Below are positions 178-54,347 of a stretch of 64,000 nucleotides of DNA, one piece after another. The position numbers were made by a program, and so were the translations under genes. The stretch lies in the NCBI GenBank assembly GCA_017536555.1, contig JAFXHE010000019.1:1-64000 (forward strand), in the 5' to 3' direction. The notes under the pieces were generated by a model that saw only the letters and a program-made list of their open reading frames with translations, was not told the origin of the DNA and did not search any database. Source of the DNA: Alistipes sp. (GTDB lineage Bacteria; Bacteroidota; Bacteroidia; Bacteroidales; Rikenellaceae). How positions within the stretch are numbered: the first letter of the stretch is position 1; each line of letters starts with the position of its first letter.

Positions 178-561
178 TTACTTCTTACCTGCCTTGGGAC
201 GCTTTGCTCCATACTTTGAGCGACGCTGACGGCGACCATCGACACCTGCTGAGTCGAGTGCACCACGAACCAAGTGATAACGTACACCGGGGAGGTCCTT
301 AACACGACCACCACGAACGAGCACGATTGAGTGCTCCTGCAAGTTGTGGCCCTCGCCTGGGATGTAGGCATTGACCTCCTTGCCATTAGTCAATCTTACA
401 CGTGCAACCTTACGCATAGCCGAGTTCGGCTTCTTGGGAGTTGTTGTGTACACACGAGTACAAACTCCACGGCGCTGAGGACACGCTGCGAGTGCAGGCG
501 ACTTACTCTTGTCAACCTGGCTAACTCGACCGTTTCTTACTAACTGCTGAATAGTTGGCAT
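178..561 (-). CDS. rpsL: 30S ribosomal protein S12
   Basis: This 127-residue protein begins [12 protein letters not shown] and contains [19 protein letters not shown] and [18 protein letters not shown], the S12 decoding-centre signature. The KPNSAMRK lysine and the [10 protein letters not shown] loop are the positions where streptomycin-resistance changes occur in other species; both look wild type here. The open frame extends upstream to 669, but S12 proteins start at MPTI, so the ATG at 561 was chosen. It is the first gene of the str operon seen here, with rpsG following on the minus strand. A TATCTTTG box about 70 bases upstream is its likely promoter. Confidence 0.97.
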
Positions 562-1018: not shown

Positions 1019-1052
1019 AAAAAAGCACCCCGATTTGCAGCTCGAAGAGCTG
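1019..1052 (-). terminator. Hairpin followed at a distance by a T-run
   Basis: The minus strand contains CAGCTC-TTC-GAGCTG (1052 to 1038), a perfect 6-bp hairpin with a 3-base loop. A T6 run follows at 1024 to 1019. The 13-base spacing between stem and T-run is longer than in a standard intrinsic terminator. It may be a back-up terminator or a second structured element downstream of the RNA candidate at 1108-1264. Confidence 0.35.
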
Positions 1053-1107
1053 TATATTTACGACGAAAAATAGCAGTATTGCGGGAGTGACATAGGGCAG
1101 ATTAGAT

Positions 1108-1264
1108 ACAAAAAGGAGGACATCGAAAGATATTCAACCTACGGCTTACCACACCGTCTGTTTTAGTAACAAAACATGCCCCTCGTTGAGTCGGCATCTT
1201 CTGCTACAACCTTTCGTTGTCCTCTCCAACCTAAAACTACTAACCTAAATGAACCTTAAAACTT
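1108..1264 (-). ncRNA. Candidate structured small RNA, family not recognised
   Basis: A 14-base closing stem (arms 1116-1129 and 1211-1224, one mismatch) encloses three hairpins. Their arms are 1141-1144/1154-1157, 1159-1164/1171-1176 and 1176-1180/1193-1197. On the minus strand the 3' arm runs straight into CTTTTT (1115 to 1110), like an intrinsic terminator. A TACCTTTG promoter lies just upstream at 1277-1270, giving an RNA of about 155 nt. The roughly 40-nt leader repeats a TTTAGGTT-like motif two to three times. I see no open frame and cannot match it to tmRNA, SRP RNA, RNase P RNA or a tRNA. The layout is sequence-derived; that it is expressed is inference. Confidence 0.6.
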
Positions 1265-1269
1265 CGCTG

Positions 1270-1300
1270 CAAAGGTAAGCACTATCTTTGAAACCTCCAA
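1270..1300 (-). promoter_or_regulatory. Promoter of the candidate small RNA
   Basis: On the minus strand TACCTTTG (1277 to 1270) fits the TAnnTTTG -7 consensus. TTGG (1300 to 1297) lies 19 bases upstream at the expected -33 position. Transcription would start near 1264, about 40 bases before the closing stem of the folded RNA. Confidence 0.6.
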
Positions 1301-42032: not shown

Positions 42033-43625
42033 ATGGCAAAATTGAGCGAAAAGATAGGCTACGGCTTGGGTGACTTCTCGTCTTCTATGTTCTGGAAGAT
42101 ATTTATGTACTACATAATGTTCTTCTACACACAGGTATTTGGACTGACGCTGGAGGACGCCACACTACTTATACTCGTCACCAAACTGTGGGATGCTGTC
42201 AGCGACCCGCTTATGGGTGTCATCGCCGACCGCACGTCGACGCGTTGGGGAAAGTATCGTCCCTACCTACTCTGGATAGCGATACCCTTTGCCGTATGTG
42301 GTGTTCTTACCTTCACGACACCCACGTTTGGATATGCAGGTAAGGTGATCTGGGCATACTGCACGTATGTACTTATGATGACTGTCTATACAGCTATCAA
42401 TGTGCCCTACGGAGCTATGCTCGGTGTGATGTCTGCCGACTCAAAGGAGCGTAACATCTTCTCGTCTTACAGAATGTTCTTCGCCTATGCAGGTAGCTTC
42501 GTGTCGCTGATGATATTTGGTCCGTTATGCAACCTCTTCAGTTCGCACAACAACCTTACAAGCGACGGTAACATACAGCTGTCGTCAGAGCCGCAGGCGT
42601 GGCAGATGACGATGATTGTCGTAGGCAGCATCTGCGCAATATTCTTCCTTCTGTCGTTCTTCCTCACACGCGAGCGCGTGAAGGTAGACAACAAGCAGAC
42701 GGAGAAACGCTCTTCTGTAGGTCGCGATATCAAACTTCTGGTGCGCAACGCTCCGTGGTGGATACTCCTCGGCGTATCGTTGGCTGTGGTAATGTTCAAC
42801 TCGATACGTGGTGGCGTAGCGGCATACTACTTTGCAGACTACATCGGTAACGACAGCCTTATGGGCTCATTGTTCGGCATAAACATCTTCCTCACCTGCA
42901 CCATCTTCCTCACCATAGGCGAGGTTGCAAATATGGTGGGTGTAGCTCTGGCTGTACCCTTCGCAAAACTCGTGGGTAAGAAGTGGGCATATATCTGGTC
43001 AATACTCACAGTGGCCGTGTTCACAGCTCTCTTCTATTTCATCCCCGAGAGCGGTGTGATGAGCTACTGGCTAATACTGCTACTGCAGGTGGTAATCTCT
43101 GTGGCGGCAGGTGTTACGCTACCGCTCGTATGGTCGATGTTTGCCGACGTGGCAGACTACTCGGAGCACAAGAACGGCACCAGCTCCGTAGGTCTTATCT
43201 TCTCGTCATCGTCAATGGCGCAGAAGTTTGGCGCAGCCTTCGGCTCACTGGTTATCGGCTGGTTGTTGATGTCGTTCAACTACGTAGTACCCGAGGATGC
43301 CAAGCGTTACACAGCTGACGAGGTGGCACAAGCACGCACCGAGTTTGCAGCGATGACCGCACAGAGCTATATGCTTGAGATGGAGCACGACAGCGGTGCT
43401 ATGATAACCATAGAGCTGACAAAGGCGGAGGATGGTACAATAACAGAGCAAATCACAACGCGCCAGAGCGACACAGCGGTAGATGGTCTGAAGTCACTTA
43501 TAAGCTGGATACCCGCGCTCACAGCACTGCTCGGCGCACTGATAATGATGCTTTATCCGTTGGGCGAGAGCCGTATGGCGGCCATCCAACAGGAGCTAAA
43601 CGCAAAACGTAAGATAGATGAGTAA
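42033..43625 (+). CDS. GPH/MFS-family sugar:cation symporter
   Basis: This 530-residue inner-membrane protein has about 12 hydrophobic segments. Motifs of the glycoside-pentoside-hexuronide:cation symporters include KIGYGLGDFSSSMFWKIFMY, LWDAVSDPLMGVIADRTSTR with WGKYRPYLLW, and MFADVADYSEHKNG. An insertion of about 50 residues near 440-490 lies before the last membrane segments. It probably brings mannobiose or mannooligosaccharides into the cytoplasm, between GH130 and the epimerase. It overlaps the epimerase start by 8 bases. Confidence 0.9.
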   Translation: MAKLSEKIGYGLGDFSSSMFWKIFMYYIMFFYTQVFGLTLEDATLLILVTKLWDAVSDPLMGVIADRTSTRWGKYRPYLLWIAIPFAVCGVLTFTTPTFGYAGKVIWAYCTYVLMMTVYTAINVPYGAMLGVMSADSKERNIFSSYRMFFAYAGSFVSLMIFGPLCNLFSSHNNLTSDGNIQLSSEPQAWQMTMIVVGSICAIFFLLSFFLTRERVKVDNKQTEKRSSVGRDIKLLVRNAPWWILLGVSLAVVMFNSIRGGVAAYYFADYIGNDSLMGSLFGINIFLTCTIFLTIGEVANMVGVALAVPFAKLVGKKWAYIWSILTVAVFTALFYFIPESGVMSYWLILLLQVVISVAAGVTLPLVWSMFADVADYSEHKNGTSSVGLIFSSSSMAQKFGAAFGSLVIGWLLMSFNYVVPEDAKRYTADEVAQARTEFAAMTAQSYMLEMEHDSGAMITIELTKAEDGTITEQITTRQSDTAVDGLKSLISWIPALTALLGALIMMLYPLGESRMAAIQQELNAKRKIDE

Positions 43626-44805
43626 CGTAGATACTATAATGAATAGGATGTTGTCCACACTCGAGGACAACATCCTACGTTTCTGGCTCGACAAGATGGT
43701 CGACACCGAGAGAGGTGGCTTCTATGGAAAGATGGATGCCGAGGGTGTCGTTGATAGGGATGCTCCAAAGGGGGCTATCCTCACAGGACGCATACTGTGG
43801 ACAATGGCGGCGGCATACCGCATTACACAAAACCCAGAATACCTCACCGCAGCAACACACGCCAAACGTTTCCTCATAGACAAGCTATATGACGAGGAGT
43901 ATGGTGGTGTGTACTGGTCTGTGACAGCAGAGGGTGCTCCGTTAGATACCAAGAAGCAGTTTTACGCCCTCGGCTTCGCAATATACGGACTATCGGAGTA
44001 TGTGCGCGTGACGGGCGATGAGGAGGCCCTACACTATGCCATAAAGCTATACGACAGCATCGAGGAGCATAGCCACGACAAACGCTACGGCGGGTATATT
44101 GAGGCTACAAGCCGTGATTGGCAGCCTATTGAAGATATGCGCCTTTCGACAAAGGATCGCAACGACCGCAAGTCGATGAACACGCATCTGCACATCATCG
44201 AGCCGTATGCCAACCTACTGCGCGTGTGGCGCAGCGATGAGCTTGTGGAGAGCGTATGCGGGCTTCTCGACATCTTCGAAAAACACATTGTTGACCCCGA
44301 GAGTGGACATCTGCGCCTATTCTTCGATGACGAGTGGAGGTCGCAGACGGCAATGATATCATACGGTCACGATATCGAGGCGGCGTGGCTCATCATCGAG
44401 GCTGCAACAGTCGTGGGAGATGCAACACTAATAGAGCACTTTGGAGGACTGGCACGCCGCATCGCAGCAGCTGCCGCGGAGGGTTTACAGAGCGATGGCT
44501 CAATGGCTTACGAATATGACCCTGAAAGCCAGCACCACGATAACGACAGACATTGGTGGGTGCAAGCGGAGACCGTGGTGGGATACTTCTATATGTGGCA
44601 TCTATACGGCGACGAGGAGGCTCTCGAAAGGGCTGTGCGCGCCTGGGAGTATATCGACAATGATATTATCGACCACACCAACGGCGAGTGGTGGTGGAGC
44701 CGCAAGGCTGACGGCACAATAAATATGCAGGAAGACAAGGCTGGTTTCTGGAAGTGTCCGTACCATAACTCGAGAATGTGTATAGAGTTGTTGCAGACAA
44801 TGTAA
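43618..44805 (+). CDS. AGE-family disaccharide 2-epimerase (mannobiose/cellobiose 2-epimerase)
   Basis: The 395-residue cytosolic protein of the N-acylglucosamine/cellobiose 2-epimerase fold, an (alpha/alpha)6 barrel, has KSMNTHLHIIEPYANLLRVW, SYGHDIEAAWLI and WWVQAETVVGYFYM carrying the conserved catalytic histidines and glutamates. It interconverts mannobiose and Man-beta-1,4-Glc by epimerising C2 of the reducing sugar. Placed with GH130 and a sugar symporter, mannobiose is the likely substrate. It overlaps the transporter gene by 8 bases and ends the operon at a strong terminator. Confidence 0.93.
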   Translation: MSNVDTIMNRMLSTLEDNILRFWLDKMVDTERGGFYGKMDAEGVVDRDAPKGAILTGRILWTMAAAYRITQNPEYLTAATHAKRFLIDKLYDEEYGGVYWSVTAEGAPLDTKKQFYALGFAIYGLSEYVRVTGDEEALHYAIKLYDSIEEHSHDKRYGGYIEATSRDWQPIEDMRLSTKDRNDRKSMNTHLHIIEPYANLLRVWRSDELVESVCGLLDIFEKHIVDPESGHLRLFFDDEWRSQTAMISYGHDIEAAWLIIEAATVVGDATLIEHFGGLARRIAAAAAEGLQSDGSMAYEYDPESQHHDNDRHWWVQAETVVGYFYMWHLYGDEEALERAVRAWEYIDNDIIDHTNGEWWWSRKADGTINMQEDKAGFWKCPYHNSRMCIELLQTM

Positions 44806-44834
44806 GATGAAAATCATCAAAATAGCAACAAGAG

Positions 44835-44861
44835 TGGCTACCCAAAAGGTAGCCATTTTTT
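44835..44861 (+). terminator. Terminator of the mannan operon
   Basis: TGGCTACC (44835-44842), loop CAAAA, GGTAGCCA (44848-44855) and a T6 run form a textbook intrinsic terminator about 30 bases after the epimerase stop. Confidence 0.9.
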
Positions 44862-45200
44862 GTTGGTCGCGCAAAGCAGCTCGTTTGCATAAATATCGTT
44901 GCGAAAATTTGCATTTCTTTGCGCTAAACTATACAAATACACCTTAAACACCATCCACAGACATCCACATTAACAAAATTTATTAAAAATGTATCGCATT
45001 GTTGTTCAGTGCTTTGTATTTTACACAGCTTTATACACATCCACTTTTTTAGCTGAAAAATAGTAGTCAAAACCATCAATTTCCCGTTATAAAAATAACA
45101 GTCAATATTCTTTCCACTTTAATTTAACTCCACAAAAAGCTATATGGCTGTTTTACTGATAATTAAGATTTTTAAGCTTTATATTCGCATCTTTTTGTGC

Positions 45201-45216
45201 ATCTACTTATGTAGAT
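45201..45216. promoter_or_regulatory. Inverted repeat upstream of the second susC, possible operator
   Basis: ATCTAC-TTAT-GTAGAT is a perfect 6-base inverted repeat about 50 bases before the weak TAGTATTG -7 candidate. The location suits an activator site for the beta-glucan locus. Its function is inference. Confidence 0.35.
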
Positions 45217-45350
45217 AAAATTTGTAGAAATGAAAAAACTTTCTTAATTTAGTATGTGCAAAAAATAGTATTGAATAGCTTTCAGACTCTGAAAATTGAC
45301 CATATTTTTTCGTCTGATACTCATACAATGACAACCACAAACAATTATTA

Positions 45351-45525
45351 ACTAATAACAAAAGCCTATGAAAAACTTGACTTACAGAATCGCCTTGATC
45401 CTTGCGATCTTGTGCGTAGGCAGTGTTTCGGCATTTGCCCAACAAGTGAAGGGTACCGTTAAGGACTCGGCAGGCTCACCGATAATCGGCGCAGCAGTCG
45501 TTGTCGAAGGTACAACCGTCGGCAC
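45351..45525 (+). repeat. Direct repeat copy B at the 5' end of the second susC
   Basis: Nearly identical to 30600-30774 (three mismatches in 175 bases), starting 17 bases before the ATG and ending at codon 53. The sequence before it in the two loci is unrelated, so the identity is not an extended operon duplication. Confidence 0.85.
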
Positions 45526-48500
45526 AACAACTGCCACAGACGGAAGCTTTACCATCAATGCTACTGACGGACAGACATTGGTGGTGTCGTATATCGGATA
45601 TATCCCAGCTACTCAATTAGTTGGGGGGGGGAGAACCGAATACGCAATCGTTCTTGAGGAGGATACTCAAGACATCGACGAGATCGTAGTCGTAGGTTAC
45701 GGCACACAGAAGAAGAGTGTCGTAACTGCCGCTATCTCATCTATCACGGCTGATGACCTCAAGGCACAGTCGAACAATCGTATCGAGCACGTACTTCAGG
45801 GTATGACAACTGGTGTTACAGTTACTGCCCCCTCTGGTGCTCCCGATGCAGGCGCACAGGTACGTATCCGTGGTGTCGGCTCTATCAACAATTCAGAGCC
45901 CTTGTACATCGTTGACGGTATGGCAATCTCTGGTGGTATCGACTACCTTAACCCCAACGATATCGAGCGTATCGAGGTGTTGAAGGATGCCGCTTCAGGT
46001 GCTGTTTACGGTGCTCGTGCAGCTAACGGCGTTATCCTCGTTACCACAAAGCGTGGTAAGACGGGTAAGGCTACTGTTAACTACGACTTCTCTTATGGTT
46101 GGCAGAATCCTTGGCGCAAGCCCAACGTGCTTAACGCTACAGAGTATGCTACAATCATGAATGAGGGTTACATCAACGCAGGTCAGGCTCCCATATACGA
46201 CAATCCGTTTGAGTTTGGCGAGGGCACTGACTGGGTAGGTGCTGTTATCAACAGCAACGCACCTGTAATGAAGCACGACCTCTCAATCTCTGGTGGTTCG
46301 GAGAGTGTGAACTATGCTTTGTCAGCAGGTTACCTCACACGTGAGGGTACAGTAGGTGGTAACTTTGATCGTTCAAACTACGAGCGTCTTACCATCCGCA
46401 CAAACATTGGCGTAACCGTATTTGATAGCTCAAAGAAGCGCGACTGGCTCAACAAGCTCACCGTGCAGACCTCTGCTTCATACGCGCGCATATTATCTAC
46501 AGGTATTGACGTTAACTCGGAGTATGGTTCACCTCTTGGCTCTGCAATGAGCATCTCTCCACTGTTGGATATCTATGCTACACCCGAGGAGGAGGAGTCA
46601 TACAAGACACTCTATCCCGATGGCTACGAGCACATCGTACGCGACAAGGATGGTCGTGCTTACACCGTTGTTGATGGTAACGTTTACAACGAGCAGAGCA
46701 ACCCCTTGGCATTCTTGTCACTTCCAGGCACAAAGTACGAGACAGATAAGTTCATCGCTAACTTCGTAGGCGAGCTTACTATCTTCGACGGCTTGAAGTT
46801 CCGCTCATCAGTAGGTGTTGACCTCGCATTCTGGGGCAACCACGGCTACTCAAAGCAGTATTTCCTCTCTTCAAAGCGTTACAGCTACAACACTGTATCA
46901 TCAGAGACCACTTATGATAAGGACGGTAATGCTACAGTAACCGATAAGATGAACTATGCAGAGTCTGCATCACAGGAGATGAACCGTGGCTTGCAGTATC
47001 AGGTTGAGAACGTCCTCTCTTATGAGAAGACCTTTGGCAAGCACTCTGTATCTGTTATCTTGGGTCAGTCAGCGATCTCTTCTACATCACAGAATGTAGG
47101 TGCACGAGCAATGGGTCTTATGTATCCTTATGATCCTTATAAGATCACTGTTAACAATACTCTTGGTCAGCAGTCTGATGGTCACCGCAACGGTTGGGGC
47201 TCTTGGAACTCTATCCCCTATCGCTTGGCATCATACTTCGGTCGTGCATCTTATAACTACGATGAGCGTTATATGGCGGAGGTAACCTTCCGTCGTGATG
47301 GTTCAAGCCGCTTCGGTGATAACAACAAGTGGGGTAACTTCCCATCAGTATCAGTAGGTTGGAACATCAAGAACGAGGCATTTATGGATAACGCCGAGTG
47401 GTTGTCAGCATTGAAGCTCCGCGCATCTTGGGGTATCAATGGTAACGACGCTATCGGCAACTTCGTATATGCTGTATATATGAACTCTGGTAACAACTAC
47501 GTATTCGGTTCAGGTGGTACTGGTTCAGAGGTAATCAACCTTGGTTCAAAGCCTTCAGGCTTGGCTAACCCCGATGCACGTTGGGAGGAGTCACGTCAGA
47601 CCGATATCGGTTTGGATGCAGGATTCTTCAACAACCGCCTAACATTCACATTTGACTGGTATAACAAGAAGACCGCAGGTATGCTTCTTTCAATGCCCGT
47701 TCCAGGTTATGCAGGTGACTCTGCTCCTACTGGTAACCTTGGTGATATGGTTAACCGCGGTGTTGAGCTTGAGCTTGGCTGGAGAGACTCTGCTGGTGAG
47801 TTCAACTACCACGTATCAGTTAATGCTACATACAACCAGAACGAGCTTACTTACCTCGGTGACGACTCTACTCACCTCTACGGTTCAAACCACAAGATTG
47901 GTCAGCTTACACGCGGCTCAATCGGCTTGCCATTCCCCTACTTCTATGGCTATGTAACCGATGGTATCTTCCAGAATATGGATGAGGTTAACGCTCACAC
48001 CAACGCTGACGGCGTATTGTTGCAGCCCAAGGCAGCTCCAGGTGATGTACGCTTCAAGGATCTCGATGGCAATGGCGTTATCGACGATGCTGACCGTACT
48101 ATGATTGGTAAGGGTATGCCCGACTGGACATTTGGTCTTAATCTTGGTTTCGAGTGGAAGGGTCTCGACTTCAATATGTTGTTGCAGGGTCAGGCTGGTT
48201 GCGAGGTATTCAACGTATCTCGTCGTACCGACCTCTACTACGTAAACCTCAACAAGTCTATCTTGAATCGTTGGACTGGCGAAGGCACAACAAACAAGTA
48301 TCCTCGCTTTATGTTCGACTCGGCTAACGAGAACTACCGCGTATCTGACCTTTGGTTGGAGGATGGCTCATTCTTGCGTTGCCGCAATATGCAGATCGGT
48401 TATACTCTGCCCCAGCACCTCACAAAGAAGGCTGCTATCTCACGTCTTCGTATCTTCGTGATGGCAGAGAACCTCTTCACTCTCACAAAGTACACTGGTT

Positions 48501-48610
48501 GCGATCCCGAGGTTAACGGTGGTAATGGCTTCGGTACAGAGGCAGGTATCGACCGTGGTGTATATCCCCAGTCACGCACATTCAGTGTAGGTGTTAACCT
48601 TACATTCTAA
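45368..48610 (+). CDS. susC: SusC-family TonB-dependent transporter (beta-glucan locus)
   Basis: The 1080-residue protein has a signal peptide, carboxypeptidase-regulatory-like domain (about 26-105), TonB-receptor plug (IVVVGYGTQKK, VRIRGVGSINN, VLKDAASGAVYGARAANGVI) and barrel ending FSVGVNLTF. The first 53 residues are almost identical to the other SusC. A run of nine G (45623-45631) encodes Gly-Gly-Gly at residues 86-88, replacing VERG-like sequence in the paralogue. Slippage there would frameshift the protein early. In the sequence given the frame is intact. Beta-1,3/1,6-glucan import is inferred from GH16, GH3 and GH30 neighbours. Confidence 0.95.
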   Translation: MKNLTYRIALILAILCVGSVSAFAQQVKGTVKDSAGSPIIGAAVVVEGTTVGTTTATDGSFTINATDGQTLVVSYIGYIPATQLVGGGRTEYAIVLEEDTQDIDEIVVVGYGTQKKSVVTAAISSITADDLKAQSNNRIEHVLQGMTTGVTVTAPSGAPDAGAQVRIRGVGSINNSEPLYIVDGMAISGGIDYLNPNDIERIEVLKDAASGAVYGARAANGVILVTTKRGKTGKATVNYDFSYGWQNPWRKPNVLNATEYATIMNEGYINAGQAPIYDNPFEFGEGTDWVGAVINSNAPVMKHDLSISGGSESVNYALSAGYLTREGTVGGNFDRSNYERLTIRTNIGVTVFDSSKKRDWLNKLTVQTSASYARILSTGIDVNSEYGSPLGSAMSISPLLDIYATPEEEESYKTLYPDGYEHIVRDKDGRAYTVVDGNVYNEQSNPLAFLSLPGTKYETDKFIANFVGELTIFDGLKFRSSVGVDLAFWGNHGYSKQYFLSSKRYSYNTVSSETTYDKDGNATVTDKMNYAESASQEMNRGLQYQVENVLSYEKTFGKHSVSVILGQSAISSTSQNVGARAMGLMYPYDPYKITVNNTLGQQSDGHRNGWGSWNSIPYRLASYFGRASYNYDERYMAEVTFRRDGSSRFGDNNKWGNFPSVSVGWNIKNEAFMDNAEWLSALKLRASWGINGNDAIGNFVYAVYMNSGNNYVFGSGGTGSEVINLGSKPSGLANPDARWEESRQTDIGLDAGFFNNRLTFTFDWYNKKTAGMLLSMPVPGYAGDSAPTGNLGDMVNRGVELELGWRDSAGEFNYHVSVNATYNQNELTYLGDDSTHLYGSNHKIGQLTRGSIGLPFPYFYGYVTDGIFQNMDEVNAHTNADGVLLQPKAAPGDVRFKDLDGNGVIDDADRTMIGKGMPDWTFGLNLGFEWKGLDFNMLLQGQAGCEVFNVSRRTDLYYVNLNKSILNRWTGEGTTNKYPRFMFDSANENYRVSDLWLEDGSFLRCRNMQIGYTLPQHLTKKAAISRLRIFVMAENLFTLTKYTGCDPEVNGGNGFGTEAGIDRGVYPQSRTFSVGVNLTF
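45605..45631 (+). repeat. Inverted repeat plus G9 tract inside susC
   Basis: CCAGCTA (45605-45611) and TAGTTGG (45618-45624) can form a 7-bp hairpin with one G-T pair. The right arm merges into nine consecutive G (45623-45631). It is the longest G run noticed in the window and lies at codons 80-88 of a 1080-codon gene. Confidence 0.7.
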
Positions 48611-48631
48611 CCTTAAAACCGAATGATGATT

Positions 48632-50134
48632 ATGAAAAAGATATTTTTTGCACTTTGCACAGTAGCTGTGATGCTTTCGTCATGCGGTAAGGACTTCGTT
48701 ACCGTTAAACACAATGGCTCAGAGCCTATGGATGAGTACTTCATCGACGAGGCACGTATCTACCAATCATTGGTGGCAGCTTATGACTCTTTGGAGTGGC
48801 TCGATTACTTTGATCAGTATGTCAATACATTGACTCTCACTGCCGATGTAATGGCTGATGATATCTACTGTGGTGGCTCTAACGAGGGTGACCAGCCTTC
48901 AATCGTTAAGACTCACTTCTATACTCTTACCTCAACCGAGCAGCTCGACCGTATTTGGACTATCTGCTACTCTGGTATCAACCGCTCTTGCATCGTTTTG
49001 GAGTATGTTGACCGTGTTCCAGGAATGTCTGATGCTCTGAAGGCACGCTACAAGGCAGAGGCTACTGTTTTGAAGGCATTCTACTACAAGATTATGTGGA
49101 AGTATTGGGGCAACATCCCTTACTACGATGTAAATCTTGAGGCTCCCTACTTTGCACCGCAGCTTAAGGCTGACGAGGTTTACGCAAAGTGTGTTGAGAA
49201 CCTTGAGGCAGTATTTGAGATGGATGCACTTCCTATGAAGGCGGTAGCTGGCGAGGAGGGTCGCGTAACAAAGGCTATGGCTTATATGCTCTATGCCGAG
49301 ATGGTTATGTATCAGAACGATGCTACACGTTACGAGCAGGCTCTTAAGTATATGGAGGAGATTATCAACTCTGGCGAGTATGCACTCGTTGCCGACTATG
49401 CTTCAATCTGGCTTGAGTCGGGTGAGTGGGGCACAGAGTCAATCTGGGAGATCAACTACATCTCGGAGGGTGCTGTTCGCTCTTGGGGCGCACCTCTTGC
49501 AACTGGTGGTACTGTATATCCTATGCTTATTGGTGTTACTGGTGCTCCTGCAGATTCAGGTTACGTTGGTGGTTGGGGCTTTGGTCCCGTTGCTCCATCG
49601 GCTTGGGAGTTGTTCGACGAGGGTGACTCACGTCGTGAGGGCTCTATCCTCAACTTCTACGAGGAGTTCCCCAACTTGACACTTGGTGAGGAGCGTTGGC
49701 AGTATACAGGTCTCTTCCTTAAGAAGTATGTTGCTCGCGTAAATGGTAACCACGGTCAGCTTGCTGATGGTGATATGAACTATGGTAACAACGTTCGCGT
49801 ATACCGCTATGCCGAGACTCTGCTTAATGCAGCCGAGTTGGCAGTTCTTACTGGCAAGGATGGCTCTGCATACCTTCAGCAGGTACGTCAGCGCGCAGGC
49901 TGTACAGACACTGGCACCGACCAGCTCTCTATCATCGAGGAGCGTCACAAGGAGTTCGTAGGCGAGGGTAAGCGTTACTGGGATTTGGTACGTTCAGGCT
50001 TGGCAGAGCAGGTTCTTAAGGCTGACAACCACGAGTGGCGTACTATTGACTGGAATCCTGGCAAGAAGTACTGGCCATTGCCCCAGTCAGAGGTCGACAA
50101 GGATCCTAACCTTGTACAGAACGTAGGTTACTAA
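48632..50134 (+). CDS. susD: SusD-family glycan-binding lipoprotein (beta-glucan locus)
   Basis: Three ATGs occur in a row (48623, 48626, 48632). The third begins a normal lipoprotein signal, MKKIFFALCTVAVMLSSC, and was chosen, giving 500 residues. SusD features include KAEATVLKAFYYKIMWKYWG, TKAMAYMLYAEMVMYQND and the C-terminal ERHKEFVGEGKRYWDLVRSG signature, ending KYWPLPQSEVDKDPNLVQN. It binds glucan at the cell surface together with the SusC upstream (21 bases). Confidence 0.94.
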   Translation: MKKIFFALCTVAVMLSSCGKDFVTVKHNGSEPMDEYFIDEARIYQSLVAAYDSLEWLDYFDQYVNTLTLTADVMADDIYCGGSNEGDQPSIVKTHFYTLTSTEQLDRIWTICYSGINRSCIVLEYVDRVPGMSDALKARYKAEATVLKAFYYKIMWKYWGNIPYYDVNLEAPYFAPQLKADEVYAKCVENLEAVFEMDALPMKAVAGEEGRVTKAMAYMLYAEMVMYQNDATRYEQALKYMEEIINSGEYALVADYASIWLESGEWGTESIWEINYISEGAVRSWGAPLATGGTVYPMLIGVTGAPADSGYVGGWGFGPVAPSAWELFDEGDSRREGSILNFYEEFPNLTLGEERWQYTGLFLKKYVARVNGNHGQLADGDMNYGNNVRVYRYAETLLNAAELAVLTGKDGSAYLQQVRQRAGCTDTGTDQLSIIEERHKEFVGEGKRYWDLVRSGLAEQVLKADNHEWRTIDWNPGKKYWPLPQSEVDKDPNLVQNVGY

Positions 50135-50180
50135 ACAACCGACAGTGTAGATTAAGTATAACTTAAAAACACAGACAAGT

Positions 50181-52739
50181 ATGAAAAAGATGTTTAAATA
50201 TATAGCTGCGGCTCTGCTTGCACTGCCTATGCTCGTTGTCGGTTGTACACCCGACTATCCGACGCCCGACCAGAGCAAGTTGCCCTCGGCTGAAGATTTT
50301 GATGTAACGATTGACGTCAACCAAGAGACAAACTATGTAACCTTCACTATGAACAATACTGGTATGGTGCCTATGTTCATCTTTGGTGAAGACCAGAAGG
50401 TTGACGGTAAGGCTAACAAGACTTACGCCTATACGGGCAACGGCATCTCGCTTCGTTTCCGCGATGCTGGTGACTACACCGTAGAGGTTAAGGCTTATAA
50501 CGCTAACGGTGTGTCGGTAGGCTCAAAGGTCTATGAGTTTACAATGGAGAACACATACCGCGATCCGTTTGACGCATCTCCTTATATGAAGGCGATGGCA
50601 AACACTTGGCAGTGGGATCAGGCAAACAAGGGTCACTTTGGTTGCGGCTCTATCAATGCCGAGACAGGTAAGGCTACCACAGACGGTACTGACTGGTGGT
50701 CTTGCGATCCTGATGGCAAGGAGGGTATGGGTCTTTATGACGATACTTTGACCTTCACAGAGGATGGTAAGTATACATTCAACCCTGGCGAGGGTGGTAC
50801 TGTATATGTAAACTGGGGTATGAACGGCTACAGCGACTATGCACAGTACTGGGATGGTACAGAGACCGACTTCCAGGTACCTATGGAGGAGTTCACTTGT
50901 GCATACACCATCGAGAACAACTGGAACGATGCAGGTATCGAGGAGATCTACCTCGTACTTGAGCAGGGCAAGAACCTATCGTATATTCCTCACGTTACAG
51001 CTTTGAACGAGCCTCGCTACCGCTTCCTTGAGACTAATGCAGGTAACATCCGCAAGACATTGTCACTCGTTCAGGAGGCTCCCACCGAGAATGGTGGTGG
51101 CGGTATCGCTTGGAAGTATCAGTTTGTTCCATTTGTACACGTAGCAGGCCCCGAGGAGTTGTTGGCAGGCACTGACGCAGCTGGTAAGGTATGGGTGATG
51201 GATGCTGATGCACAGGGTCACCTCGGTTGTGGTGAAAGCGTTGAGAACCCCGCAGGCTGGTGGTCAGCACCCGCACAGGATAAGGCTGCATACGGTATGT
51301 ACGACGATGAGATCACCTTCACTCCTGATGGTAAGTATATCTACAACCCAGGTCCCGACGGTTTGATGTACATCAACTGGGGCGTGACAGCTATTGGTCC
51401 TAACCCAGGTGCAGAGCCCGATATCGACATCGAGTGGTCATTGACAGAGAGCACCTACACATTTGATGGCTCGACTATCACTTTGGCAGCAAATACTCCT
51501 ATGGTATATGTTCCCTCTGACCACGTTTGGGCTAATCCCGTATTCCACGTGACAGAGATCACCGAGACCAAGCTCGTTGTTGTTGCCGAGAACCCTGGCT
51601 GCTACTGGCAGATGATATTCAAGGCACGCGACGTGAAGGCTCCCGCTGTGACATTTGACGGCGTAGACGTTGCTTCAGGCTTTGCAGAGATTACTCTGGC
51701 ACAGGGTCAGGAGATTGCTGTAACAGGTGTTAACTTTGATGAGGCTTGGATTGATCCCGACTTCTTCGAGGTTGTAAACGCAAGCACATTGAAGTTCTTG
51801 GCAGAGAATGGCGACTACCGCGTATCGTGGGATGGTAAGTGGTTCAAGGTTGTTCCTATGTACAACGGCGAGAAGGCTACTTATGACAATGGTAAGGCAT
51901 TGTGGATCATCGGTGACGGTGGTGGTAAGCCTACTGTTGACAACCTTATCGGCTGGAACACTGGCGAGGCACCGCTGCCTTGCGCTAAGATTGGCGAGAA
52001 CACCTACCGCATCACTTTGGCTATGAAGGCTGAGGGTGGCTCTGTTAAGGTATTCGGTCAGTCTGACTGGGGCGTTGAGTGGACAAAGGATAAGTATGGT
52101 ACTGTAACTGACAATGGTTTCTTCCACATCCCTGGTGATGATGGTAATATCCACACTATCGAGGGTACAGAGCCTGGCTACTACACATTCTTCTTCACTG
52201 ACAACGACGGCATCCTCGATATGGAGGTTAAGAAGTTGGCTGTTAAGCCATCAGAGCTTGATCCCGCAGCTGCAACAAACCTCTGGAAGGGCGGCTATGC
52301 TGTAACCTATTGGTTTGCTGATTCAAGCTGGGCACAGATTGGCGATCCCGAGGTAGAGGTAGATGGCGCAAACTATAAGATCACTATCCCCGAGGGTATT
52401 GGTGGTGCACAGTGGCAGGGTCAGATGGCTATCCTCACCGACATCAACACCGAGGAGGGTAAGAAGTATGACTTCCAGGTTAAGCTCTACTCTGAAACCG
52501 ACCAGAAGGCTGACGCTATCACCATCAAGCTGTGCAACGGCTTGGAGGGTGCTGCAGACGACCCATTCTACTTCGATCCAAAGGTGGGTGTAACCTCATT
52601 CGAGGAGTTTACTTATATGCAGTGGGGCATGGCTGGTAAGGCTTGTACCCCCGCGAAGCTCGTTCTTGACTTTGGCGGTTGCGTTCCTGGTAGCGTAATC
52701 GAGGTTCGAGGACTTGTTCTTCAGGAGCACGTTGAGTAA
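50181..52739 (+). CDS. Large surface glycan-binding lipoprotein with tandem repeat domains
   Basis: The 852-residue lipoprotein has Cys22 in LVVGC. After a PKD-like domain (about 38-125) come two homologous segments (about 134-300 and 330-490). They share W-x(6-8)-GHxGCG, GWWSxP/DWWSCDP, GMYDDEITFTPDGKYIYNPG versus GLYDDTLTFTEDGKYTFNPG, and YxNWG. A middle domain follows (about 500-690), then a C-terminal carbohydrate-binding-module-like sandwich (about 695-852, TNLWKGGYAVTYWFADSSWA). It occupies the SusE/F position between susD and GH16, so it is a likely beta-glucan-binding protein. No enzyme motif is seen. Confidence 0.82.
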   Translation: MKKMFKYIAAALLALPMLVVGCTPDYPTPDQSKLPSAEDFDVTIDVNQETNYVTFTMNNTGMVPMFIFGEDQKVDGKANKTYAYTGNGISLRFRDAGDYTVEVKAYNANGVSVGSKVYEFTMENTYRDPFDASPYMKAMANTWQWDQANKGHFGCGSINAETGKATTDGTDWWSCDPDGKEGMGLYDDTLTFTEDGKYTFNPGEGGTVYVNWGMNGYSDYAQYWDGTETDFQVPMEEFTCAYTIENNWNDAGIEEIYLVLEQGKNLSYIPHVTALNEPRYRFLETNAGNIRKTLSLVQEAPTENGGGGIAWKYQFVPFVHVAGPEELLAGTDAAGKVWVMDADAQGHLGCGESVENPAGWWSAPAQDKAAYGMYDDEITFTPDGKYIYNPGPDGLMYINWGVTAIGPNPGAEPDIDIEWSLTESTYTFDGSTITLAANTPMVYVPSDHVWANPVFHVTEITETKLVVVAENPGCYWQMIFKARDVKAPAVTFDGVDVASGFAEITLAQGQEIAVTGVNFDEAWIDPDFFEVVNASTLKFLAENGDYRVSWDGKWFKVVPMYNGEKATYDNGKALWIIGDGGGKPTVDNLIGWNTGEAPLPCAKIGENTYRITLAMKAEGGSVKVFGQSDWGVEWTKDKYGTVTDNGFFHIPGDDGNIHTIEGTEPGYYTFFFTDNDGILDMEVKKLAVKPSELDPAAATNLWKGGYAVTYWFADSSWAQIGDPEVEVDGANYKITIPEGIGGAQWQGQMAILTDINTEEGKKYDFQVKLYSETDQKADAITIKLCNGLEGAADDPFYFDPKVGVTSFEEFTYMQWGMAGKACTPAKLVLDFGGCVPGSVIEVRGLVLQEHVE

Positions 52740-52754
52740 TCTCTTATCATAAAT

Positions 52755-52788
52755 GGCAAGCAGGGCATCGTGCTCTGCTTGCCTTTAT
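52755..52788 (+). terminator. Hairpin terminator inside the beta-glucan locus
   Basis: GGCAAGCAG (52755-52763) pairs with CTGCTTGCC (52775-52783), with GCA-TCG-TGC nested in the loop and TTTATT following. It separates the transport/binding genes from GH16 and GH3. No promoter match was found after it, so it may act as a partial terminator that lowers expression of the enzymes relative to SusC/D. Confidence 0.65.
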
Positions 52789-52829
52789 TGTAATATCAAG
52801 TATACGGCACTAATTATAACATTCTAACA

Positions 52830-54347
52830 ATGAAATACTTACGTTATTTACTTTCATTTATTGCCGTAAGCACAGTGCTTGCAGCTACGGCCTGTTCAAA
52901 TGATGGCGACGAGAACACCACAAAACCCAAGGGTACACTTTCGCTCAGCGTTGAGGTTCTTACGGTAAGCTACGACAAGCAGACCGTTAACGTCACTGTT
53001 GAGGCGGATACAGAGTGGGGAGCATACCCACAGTGTGACTGGGTAAAGGTTACACCAAGTGGCGGTGTGGCAGGCTCAACAAAGTTGCGCGTAAGCATCG
53101 ACGAGAACACTACGAATGATGTGCGCACAAGCAGCATCGAGTTCCGTGTGCGTGACAGAGTATTCACGCTTCCTGTCAAGCAGAACTACGACGTAGAGGC
53201 TGTGGCTATTGCCGACGAGAAGTTCCTTGCGGCACTTGTCGCCAAGTATGACAGCGACGGTGACGGCATATTAAGCACCAAGGAGGCATCGGAGGTAACA
53301 CGCATAGAGTGTGCTGGCTGCGGTATCGAGTCGATGGCAGAGCTTGGCACATACTTCACGCAGGTAACATATCTCGACTGCTCAAATAACAACCTAACAA
53401 CACTGGATGTAACACAACTCACAGACCTTGTGTATCTCGACTGCTCTGGCAACAATCTTACGGAGCTTGACATACAGCGTCTGTTGCGTCTTGAAACACT
53501 CGACTGCACCAACAATGCCAACTTGGAGAAGATATATGTGTGGTTTAACTTCTCGGCTCCTGCTGGTTTCTCGAAGCCCGAAGGTGCAGAGTATATAGAA
53601 CCGTCAATAGCCACACCCGAGGGCTATGAGCTGGTGTGGCACGACGAGTTTGACACAGCTGGCGTATCGACACCCTCGACAGAGAACTGGTGGTATGAGA
53701 CAGGCGCAGGAGGCTGGGGTAACAACGAGCTTCAGGACTATGTGGCAGGCGGCAAGTATAAGGATGTACGCATCGCCGAGGTATCAGACGGCACTTTGAA
53801 AATCACTGCACAGAAGATTGACGGCAAGGTGCGCTCGGTGCGTATGAACACCAACTTGGGTTGGACGTATGGCTACTTTGAGGGTCGTCTCAAGCTATGT
53901 AAAGGTAGAGGTACTTGGCCAGCATTTTGGATGATGCCCAAGAACTTCCGTGCTTGGCCCGATGATGGCGAGATTGACATTATGGAGCACGTAGGCTATC
54001 ACGAGAACTATGTGTCGTCGTCGATACACTGTAAGGCATACTACCACTCTATCGGTACACAGAAGACCAACGAGATATATATCGCGACAGCGACCGAGGA
54101 GTTCCACACCTACGCTGTAGAGTGGACACCCGATTACCTTAAGTTCTACTTCGACGGCAAGCTACATTTCACCTTCAATAACGATGGCAAGGGCGATAAA
54201 AATACTTGGCCCTTCAACGCGCCGTTCTACCTCAAGCTCAACCTTGCGTGGGGTGGCAACTGGGGTGGTGCTATGGGCGTTGATGAGGGATGTCTACCCA
54301 CGACATACGAGATTGACTATGTGCGTGTGTTCCAGAAAATTGAGTAA
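52830..54347 (+). CDS. GH16 laminarinase lipoprotein with BACON, EF-hand and LRR modules
   Basis: The 505-residue lipoprotein has Cys22 (LAATAC, then SNDGDE, a likely surface-export signal). A BACON-type Ig domain (about 36-120) is followed by a calcium-loop-like DSDGDGILSTKE (141-152). A short leucine-rich repeat block comes next (about 180-238, LDCSNNNLTTLDV / LDCSGNNLTELDI / LDCTNNANLEKI), then the GH16 domain (about 262-505). Active-site residues are Glu381, Asp383 and Glu386 in DGEIDIMEH, the ExDxxE form of laminarinase-type GH16. It cleaves beta-1,3-glucan internally at the surface. Intervening repeats in a GH16 protein are unusual. Confidence 0.92.
   Translation: MKYLRYLLSFIAVSTVLAATACSNDGDENTTKPKGTLSLSVEVLTVSYDKQTVNVTVEADTEWGAYPQCDWVKVTPSGGVAGSTKLRVSIDENTTNDVRTSSIEFRVRDRVFTLPVKQNYDVEAVAIADEKFLAALVAKYDSDGDGILSTKEASEVTRIECAGCGIESMAELGTYFTQVTYLDCSNNNLTTLDVTQLTDLVYLDCSGNNLTELDIQRLLRLETLDCTNNANLEKIYVWFNFSAPAGFSKPEGAEYIEPSIATPEGYELVWHDEFDTAGVSTPSTENWWYETGAGGWGNNELQDYVAGGKYKDVRIAEVSDGTLKITAQKIDGKVRSVRMNTNLGWTYGYFEGRLKLCKGRGTWPAFWMMPKNFRAWPDDGEIDIMEHVGYHENYVSSSIHCKAYYHSIGTQKTNEIYIATATEEFHTYAVEWTPDYLKFYFDGKLHFTFNNDGKGDKNTWPFNAPFYLKLNLAWGGNWGGAMGVDEGCLPTTYEIDYVRVFQKIE

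Follow-up and report, generated by a model that had tools for sequence, protein, structure and literature searches.

How is the long non-coding gap beside rpsL in this Alistipes genome used, and what does it encode? The window, i.e., the whole stretch of 64,000 nucleotides that was analysed, carries rpsL and a glycosyltransferase gene that starts at 1654, and the gap of about 1.1 kb between them is as an earlier sequence-only reading of this DNA had described it. The proposal made there, that a structured, independent RNA gene specific to one group of Bacteroidales lies in the gap, is borne out by compensatory changes among relatives and by its distribution within one family. The RNA gene is conserved, occurs in two forms and is spread through the Rikenellaceae, and the genomes that bear it hold an excess of sites matching its leader before start codons. 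We consider it probable, at roughly 0.63, that the product is a base-pairing regulatory RNA acting at the translation starts of many genes, with its expression, pairing and direction of action inferred. The features of the locus are as follows.

178 to 561, minus strand: rpsL (PF00164)
1110 to 1114, minus strand: U5 tract, intrinsic terminator and predicted 3' end; in the alignment of long forms, a T run comes after the closing stem
1116 to 1224, minus strand: three-way junction, whose closing stem doubles as the terminator stem (folds, and compensatory changes in all five helices)
1224-1218 with 1122-1116 and 1216-1209 with 1131-1124, minus strand: halves of the closing stem (folds)
1207-1166 and 1162-1136, minus strand: junction arms 2 and 3, respectively (folds)
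1226 to 1265, minus strand: 40-nt 5' leader GAAGUUUUAAGGUUCAUUUAGGUUAGUAGUUUUAGGUUGG, predicted seed region; 129 of 142 copies share it without change
1228 to 1237, minus strand: module 3, GUUUUAGGUU, a repeat related to module 1, with the complement CCTAAAAC
1252 to 1262, minus strand: module 1, GUUUUAAGGUU, leader nt 4-14, the exact complement of AACCTTAAAAC
1270 to 1300, minus strand: promoter of the Bacteroidota -33/-7 type, TTGG (1300-1297), N19, TACCTTTG (1277-1270), present in 141 of 142 copies

The promoter TTGG-N19-TACCTTTG had been picked out on the minus strand from this one sequence, and its layout turns out to be kept across the copies of relatives. Of the 142 parsed copies, 141 have TAnnTTTG just 5' of the leader and 139 also have TTG at a distance of exactly 20 nt upstream of this motif; the promoter is more than a chance occurrence. 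The layout is the usual one of the phylum and also precedes two rRNA operons of the genome G125; three loci with a similar promoter (L028-L030) were considered as rRNA leaders, which Rfam did not bear out. At the other end of the gene, the U5 tract was confirmed at 1114-1110 on the minus strand, and the repeated motifs noticed in the leader are TTAGGTT and TAAGGTT. The further downstream hairpin with T6 does exist, but a terminator scan returns one such site against 0.8 expected by chance.

The fold of the RNA departs in part from its first description, which gave a closing stem of 14 bases around three hairpins. The closing stem is there, though with 15 pairs and one 1x1 mismatch, and it encloses not three hairpins but two arms in a three-way junction, one of them a long bulged hairpin. 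The stretch 1262-1095 folds at -54.8 kcal/mol against -38.6 +/- 3.7 for shuffled sequences (z -4.4, with 0 of 200 shuffles as good), and the longer stretch 1300-1019 gives a z of -2.1, with 4 of 200 shuffles as good. Covariation was assessed on 48 of the 111 long forms; 86 fitted the common pattern, 51 were chosen as diverse and 3 were dropped by hand. The consensus structure of this set, completed by hand, has 93.5% of cells paired, which none of 500 shuffles reaches, and sliding the structure brings the paired cells down to 35-50%. Double changes occur at 19 of the 28 pairs (a number reached by 1 of 500 shuffles), and the cells with double changes number 192 against 59.7 +/- 9.4 in shuffles. 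The sequence-only reading had looked to an alignment of relatives for covariation, and compensatory changes appear there in all five helices; their strength identifies the locus as an RNA gene. RNAalifold recovers the same inner helices, while the pairs it draws in the leader are neither supported nor excluded, because they almost never vary. In the folded model the leader is about half paired (mean unpaired 0.49), and its nt 4-14 are unpaired at 0.71. In groups of copies (L006, L031, L041, L146 and, separately, L034, L048, L079) the interior of the long form has been rebuilt, with the leader and the closing stem retained.

Copies were found in 22 of 41 genomes by an initial search, all from one genus and including the own genome. 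The collection of copies went from 149 loci to 143 distinct copies; of 173 blast places, 10 incomplete ones were left out, the remainder gave 143 distinct bodies, and one unparsed body brought these to 142. A covariance model, R1, was used for the family and order surveys, and matches 159 of 200 Rikenellaceae genomes, in 12 of 22 genera. The RNA, which had been called an orphan, thus belongs to a Rikenellaceae family. Across the order, 4 of 295 genomes match, namely the own genome, two more of the family and one outside it, G399, whose E of 0.0045 among 295 genomes is at chance level and which is not a member. With one mismatch allowed, a survey of 395 genomes across the phylum finds the leader core in the own genome alone, and a scan with the leader pattern returned at least 119 stretches, in records named Alistipes, Rikenellaceae or Bacteroidales. 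The strict leader pattern occurs in 0 viral contigs, on which ground viral spread of the RNA was rejected. Eight Alistipes genomes give no significant R1 match, at looser settings as well. Hits at E about 0.25 (G212, G213, G054, G061) were not used as members; G046 (E 0.015) and G060 (E 0.011) look by eye like divergent members and were counted among the genomes without the RNA in the 38/23 split of genomes used below. Around the RNA, glycosyltransferase genes are frequent, and over 169 places the largest cluster of flanking proteins has 27 members, 18 upstream and 9 downstream, that of the window included.

The two forms, both of which occur in Alistipes, differ in what follows the leader. 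In the short form (31 of 142 copies) it is one terminator hairpin with a T run; the long form is counted at 111 copies, 25 of which misfit the common-interior pattern, one of the 25 being actually minimal. Tandem copies in 121 strand-loci comprise 20 short-then-long pairs and 1 short-short pair, and a matching genome holds 1-3 matches (E up to 0.01). At the same threshold, the matches listed for other genera span 41-125 nt, mostly 83-107, and the copies read in eleven of these genera consist of the leader and one hairpin, two of them (g23, g37) being weak matches. Because the copies read in other genera are short, the three-way junction looks like an addition made in Alistipes, as judged from the distribution.

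The most conserved part of the RNA is the leader, not the junction. Where it is not identical, the leader differs solely by extra U in one run (11 copies) or by one substitution (2 copies), and the varying length of the U run argues against a fixed DNA operator and for RNA. It is built from the unit UUUUAGGUUAGUAG, with two to four repeats in other genera; most of the copies read there have the leader ...AGGUUCAUUUUAGGUUAGUAGUUUUAGGUUAGU..., about two units of UUUUAGGUUAGUAG, one g25 copy has three units and copies in g34 about four, and in g32 the first part of the leader differs, with UUUCAU retained. The number of leader units also varies between copies of one genome, G048 (L193, L195, L196, L209-L211). 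Since it varies both within G048 and between genera, the array seems to expand and contract.

This RNA matches no Rfam family, in line with the sequence-only reading, which could not assign it to one. Rfam returns no row at the RNA for the whole window at gathering scores, and no match at the RNA for its region at E up to 10, with two chance-level rows elsewhere; scans at E up to 5 of nine loci, in which both forms are represented, and of twelve from other genera give no row near the gathering score at the RNA. A FopS row is absent from these scans of the window, the region and the loci. The chance-level rows include Thr_leader (E 4.4, opposite strand), which touches an extra terminator in L009, and HOTAIR_3 (E 2.2), which overlaps the divergent candidate in L200. 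In the open-licence part of PubMed Central, as judged by titles, starts of abstracts and passages, no paper describing the RNA was found. The available text of PMC8040213 gives an Alistipes candidate upstream of L20, another kind of locus than the present one, and that of PMC3050895 reports gut sRNAs by Rfam families only.

What the leader might act on is suggested by the sites that match it. The pattern AACCTTAAAAC-N4-14-ATG, in which AACCTTAAAAC is the complement of leader nt 4-14, was counted in 61 genomes of the family, with start codons called by the first ATG and the presence or absence of the RNA in each genome taken from the R1 survey. It gives 93 rows, in 37 of the 61 genomes, against 5 occurrences of the reversed pattern, 2 of them in genomes with the RNA and 3 in genomes without. 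Cleaning by hand reduced the 93 to 84. Of the rows removed, 6 were sites that lie opposite the RNA gene (G057 and G058 with two each, G056 and G075 with one each) and three were duplicates (G064, G078, G087); a G047 site (L363) that resembled the RNA gene was checked and is not one. After cleaning, the 38 genomes that bear the RNA hold 75 sites and the 23 that lack it hold 9 (Mann-Whitney p 3e-5, which ignores kinship), and kinship among the RNA-bearing genomes could explain part of this excess. Exact AACCTTAAAAC sites come to only about two per genome. When the two middle letters were left free at a fixed spacer, the leader-matching CT was the commonest of the 16 combinations, with 46 of 150 among the matches listed (more exist), followed by AA with 23; in Alistipes, again among the matches listed, CT accounts for 45 of 136 where the genome has the RNA and for 1 of 14 where it does not (Fisher p 0.036, which ignores kinship). 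Of 30 loci fetched by the pattern, 26 have an ATG at this spacing that begins a frame of 200 aa or more; RNA-bearing genomes contribute 21 of these among 24 loci, and RNA-less genomes 5 among 6. The sites of both groups thus lie at true starts, and the groups differ in the number of sites.

Pairing energies qualify this picture. Over all start regions, thermodynamic matches of the leader fall below the mean of shuffled leaders and there is no broad k-mer excess, so a general excess of complementarity at starts was rejected. Exact k-mers are not over-represented in G125; in G077 they are so only at lengths of 10-11 nt (for 11 nt, 4 against 0.7, with 0 of 60 shuffles as high). Matches at or below -12 kcal/mol, however, are concentrated at starts: the three sets together have a ratio of starts to flanks of 1.53, whereas 300 shuffled leaders give 0.94 +/- 0.10 and none of them reaches the observed ratio; set by set it is 1.42 (15/300), 1.50 (2/300) and 1.78 (2/300), and a family genome without the RNA gives 0.80 (324 genes). 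With the Alistipes leader at -12 kcal/mol, G077 gives a ratio of 1.20 (30/200), which is not significant, and none of the sets reaches significance for such a concentration at -10 kcal/mol. Both CTTAAAAC and CTAAAAC accumulate at -20..-11 in three sets, and CCTAAAAC, the complement of module 3, is modestly over-represented before starts in G125. Shared targeting between orthologues of two genera gave no signal in 25 usable pairs. An enrichment of envelope genes was rejected; the lipoprotein excess among the top predictions is uneven.

Within the window, one predicted target lies at the junction of a susC and a susD gene.

45368-48610: susC, upstream of susD, with the site at their junction
48609 to 48619, plus strand: predicted target site AACCTTAAAAC, mean occurrence 0.00 in 100 shuffles
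48623 to 50134, plus strand: predicted target gene, SusD/RagB-family lipoprotein (PF07980, 1e-27)

The 11-mer AACCTTAAAAC occurs twice in the window, as the complement of the RNA gene and at 48609-48619, 3-12 nt before three possible in-frame start codons of susD. The predicted pairing of the leader with this site amounts to -19.5 kcal/mol, and the site is mostly unpaired in the mRNA (0.81). A related SusD gene of another Alistipes genome, in a locus fetched by the site, carries AACCTTAAAAC as well. Protein families were looked for in 20 of the 30 loci and then in 4 more, of which 2 (L340, L365) gave no family; in genomes with the RNA, the genes that bear the site encode SusD, an outer-membrane barrel, GH43, GH109 and glutamate dehydrogenase, and further ones encode an M20 peptidase, elongation factor G-like proteins and class II aldolase. 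The M20-family peptidase gene follows the second exact site of the own genome (G000:C1:105275-105298, L343). In two Alistipes and two g34 genomes the 11-mer precedes EF-G-like genes, and in two g36 genomes the aldolase gene, each time amid differing surroundings. Such persistence is support for targeting and not proof of it, because most of the compared loci were fetched by the site; L066, the G077 aldolase and the window's susD, 3 of the 8 compared, were chosen independently of it.

Two observations on the surroundings may be recorded here. The window region 43618-54347 is a likely polysaccharide-utilisation locus, with genes for a GlcNAc 2-epimerase family protein, susC, susD, a lipoprotein-like frame and a GH16 enzyme with BACON and leucine-rich repeats. 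Separately, an element around ATCCTAACCCTTAGATGAA occurs 40 times over the collected loci (L137, L144, L147, L032, L038, L043, L051, L058, L062, L070, L071, L072 and others), with GAACCCCTATGTCATGCGTGAGAGGCATGTATCCTAACCCTTAGATGAATCCACC identical in 11 of the 12 displayed and the twelfth near a locus end.

Other explanations of these data can be weighed against base pairing at starts. The UUUUAGGUUAGUAG units could be the sites of an RNA-binding protein and the RNA a sponge or structural partner, in the logic of CsrB/RsmZ, with the start sites caused otherwise. A varying number of units in an almost invariant leader fits protein sites, but a sponge would share the motif of the mRNAs, which here carry the complement instead, and RRM-1 proteins, the obvious candidates, are detected in 11 of the 159 RNA-bearing genomes and 6 of the 41 others; we regard this account as unlikely. 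We give a little less credence still to the notion that AACCTTAAAAC is a translation or start-site element of the family, unrelated to the RNA, and that its match to the leader is a coincidence. TAAAAC alone does peak at -20..-11 in all four sets, including G053, which lacks the RNA, and the sites fetched from RNA-less genomes also lie at true starts in five cases of six. The excess of the full 11-mer, however, follows the presence of the RNA, within Alistipes too, as the counts among the matches listed indicate. The longest leader-like word in two rRNA operons of G125 is 8 nt, and in the one operon tested for pairing 100 of 200 shuffles were as good as the leader, so that complementarity does not exceed chance and pairing with rRNA was rejected.

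The two remaining accounts concern the identity of the RNA itself. A 6S-like RNA had been raised earlier as a possibility, and the length as well as a promoter layout resembling that ahead of rRNA operons would suit a 6S RNA of Rikenellaceae (RF00013, RF01685), with which the RNA shares its size range though not its architecture. It was nevertheless rejected on the absence of RF00013 from the window and the own genome, in a search whose control rang in 5 of 14, whereas the search with 6S-Flavo (RF01685) is uninformative because its control rang nowhere; the conservation of the leader, a short form made of leader and one hairpin, and the tandem copies also speak against 6S, which is highly improbable. 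The least probable of all is a cis-acting leader or attenuator of rpsL. This gene does lie 549 nt downstream on the same strand in the window, but it is the nearest downstream frame at just 3 of 169 places (frames of at least 90 aa, among which there may be spurious ones). A terminator intervenes, rpsL has TTG-N18-TATCTTTG directly 5' of it (658-630), and the account was rejected given that the neighbours of the RNA change.

Base pairing at translation starts could then be pictured as follows. Transcription of a free-standing small RNA of about 155 nt would begin at a promoter of its own and stop at an intrinsic terminator, the stem of which appears to have grown into a three-way junction. The repeat-built leader would serve as a set of redundant seeds, which may pair, in other genes, with AACCTTAAAAC and related sites located about 10-25 nt ahead of the start codon, the putative targets including susD, an elongation factor G-like gene and a class II fructose-bisphosphate aldolase. 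Covering the region just 5' of the start codon, the leader would hinder initiation. The most likely outcome is repression, by analogy with GibS and FopS of Bacteroides thetaiotaomicron, which, in the available text, pair at start regions and repress (PMC7366714, PMC11697453).

In the text available, GibS and the FopS sRNA family both have a conserved 5' seed region and an intrinsic terminator, count Sus genes among their targets (PMC11697453, PMC7366714), pair at the starts of susC and other PUL mRNAs and are associated with the RRM-1 protein RbpB; FopS has 12-15 paralogues per genome and a canonical -33/-7 promoter (PMC11697453). The present RNA likewise has a conserved 5' region followed by an intrinsic terminator (in the short form; the long form adds the junction), its promoter is of the same -33/-7 type in 141 of 142 copies, and its predicted pairing falls at translation starts, with a Sus gene among the predicted targets. 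Unlike FopS, it has 1-3 matches per genome rather than 12-15 copies, and unlike both it is found in Rikenellaceae, has a leader of tandem units and a long form with a conserved three-way junction, is borne mainly by genomes with no detected RRM-1 protein, and has sites before metabolic genes as well. It would work like GibS and FopS of Bacteroides but is apparently another family, set apart from FopS by description and not by a comparison of letters. Redundancy of seeds has a parallel further afield. The LhrC sRNAs of Listeria carry several redundant copies of one seed motif and target start regions, with C-rich seeds aimed at Shine-Dalgarno sequences; shared with the present RNA are the redundant seed copies in one sRNA and the start regions as targets, whereas the U/G-rich seeds of the present RNA would have an A-rich element as their target.

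The question of a partner protein follows from the same comparison. RRM_1 proteins of the RbpB type were detected in just 17 of 200 family genomes and not found in the own genome, so an RbpB-type protein cannot be the general partner and was rejected as such. An inverse relation between the RNA and RRM_1 across the family genomes is possible. A bolder version of the base-pairing account seems rather doubtful to us: a family-wide global regulator with redundant tandem seeds in variable number directed against an A-rich element ahead of start codons, mostly without a detected RRM-1 chaperone, in which the Alistipes junction, rebuilt from the terminator stem, may sense a ligand or protein to set the amount of RNA.

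If base pairing at translation starts is true, the Rikenellaceae, a gut family, would gain a candidate hub regulator with a defined seed and predicted sites and targets, in genomes mostly without a detected RbpB-type protein. Sugar-uptake genes are among those probably regulated. Moreover, the variable number of tandem seeds would lend itself naturally to testing what number of seeds an sRNA requires.
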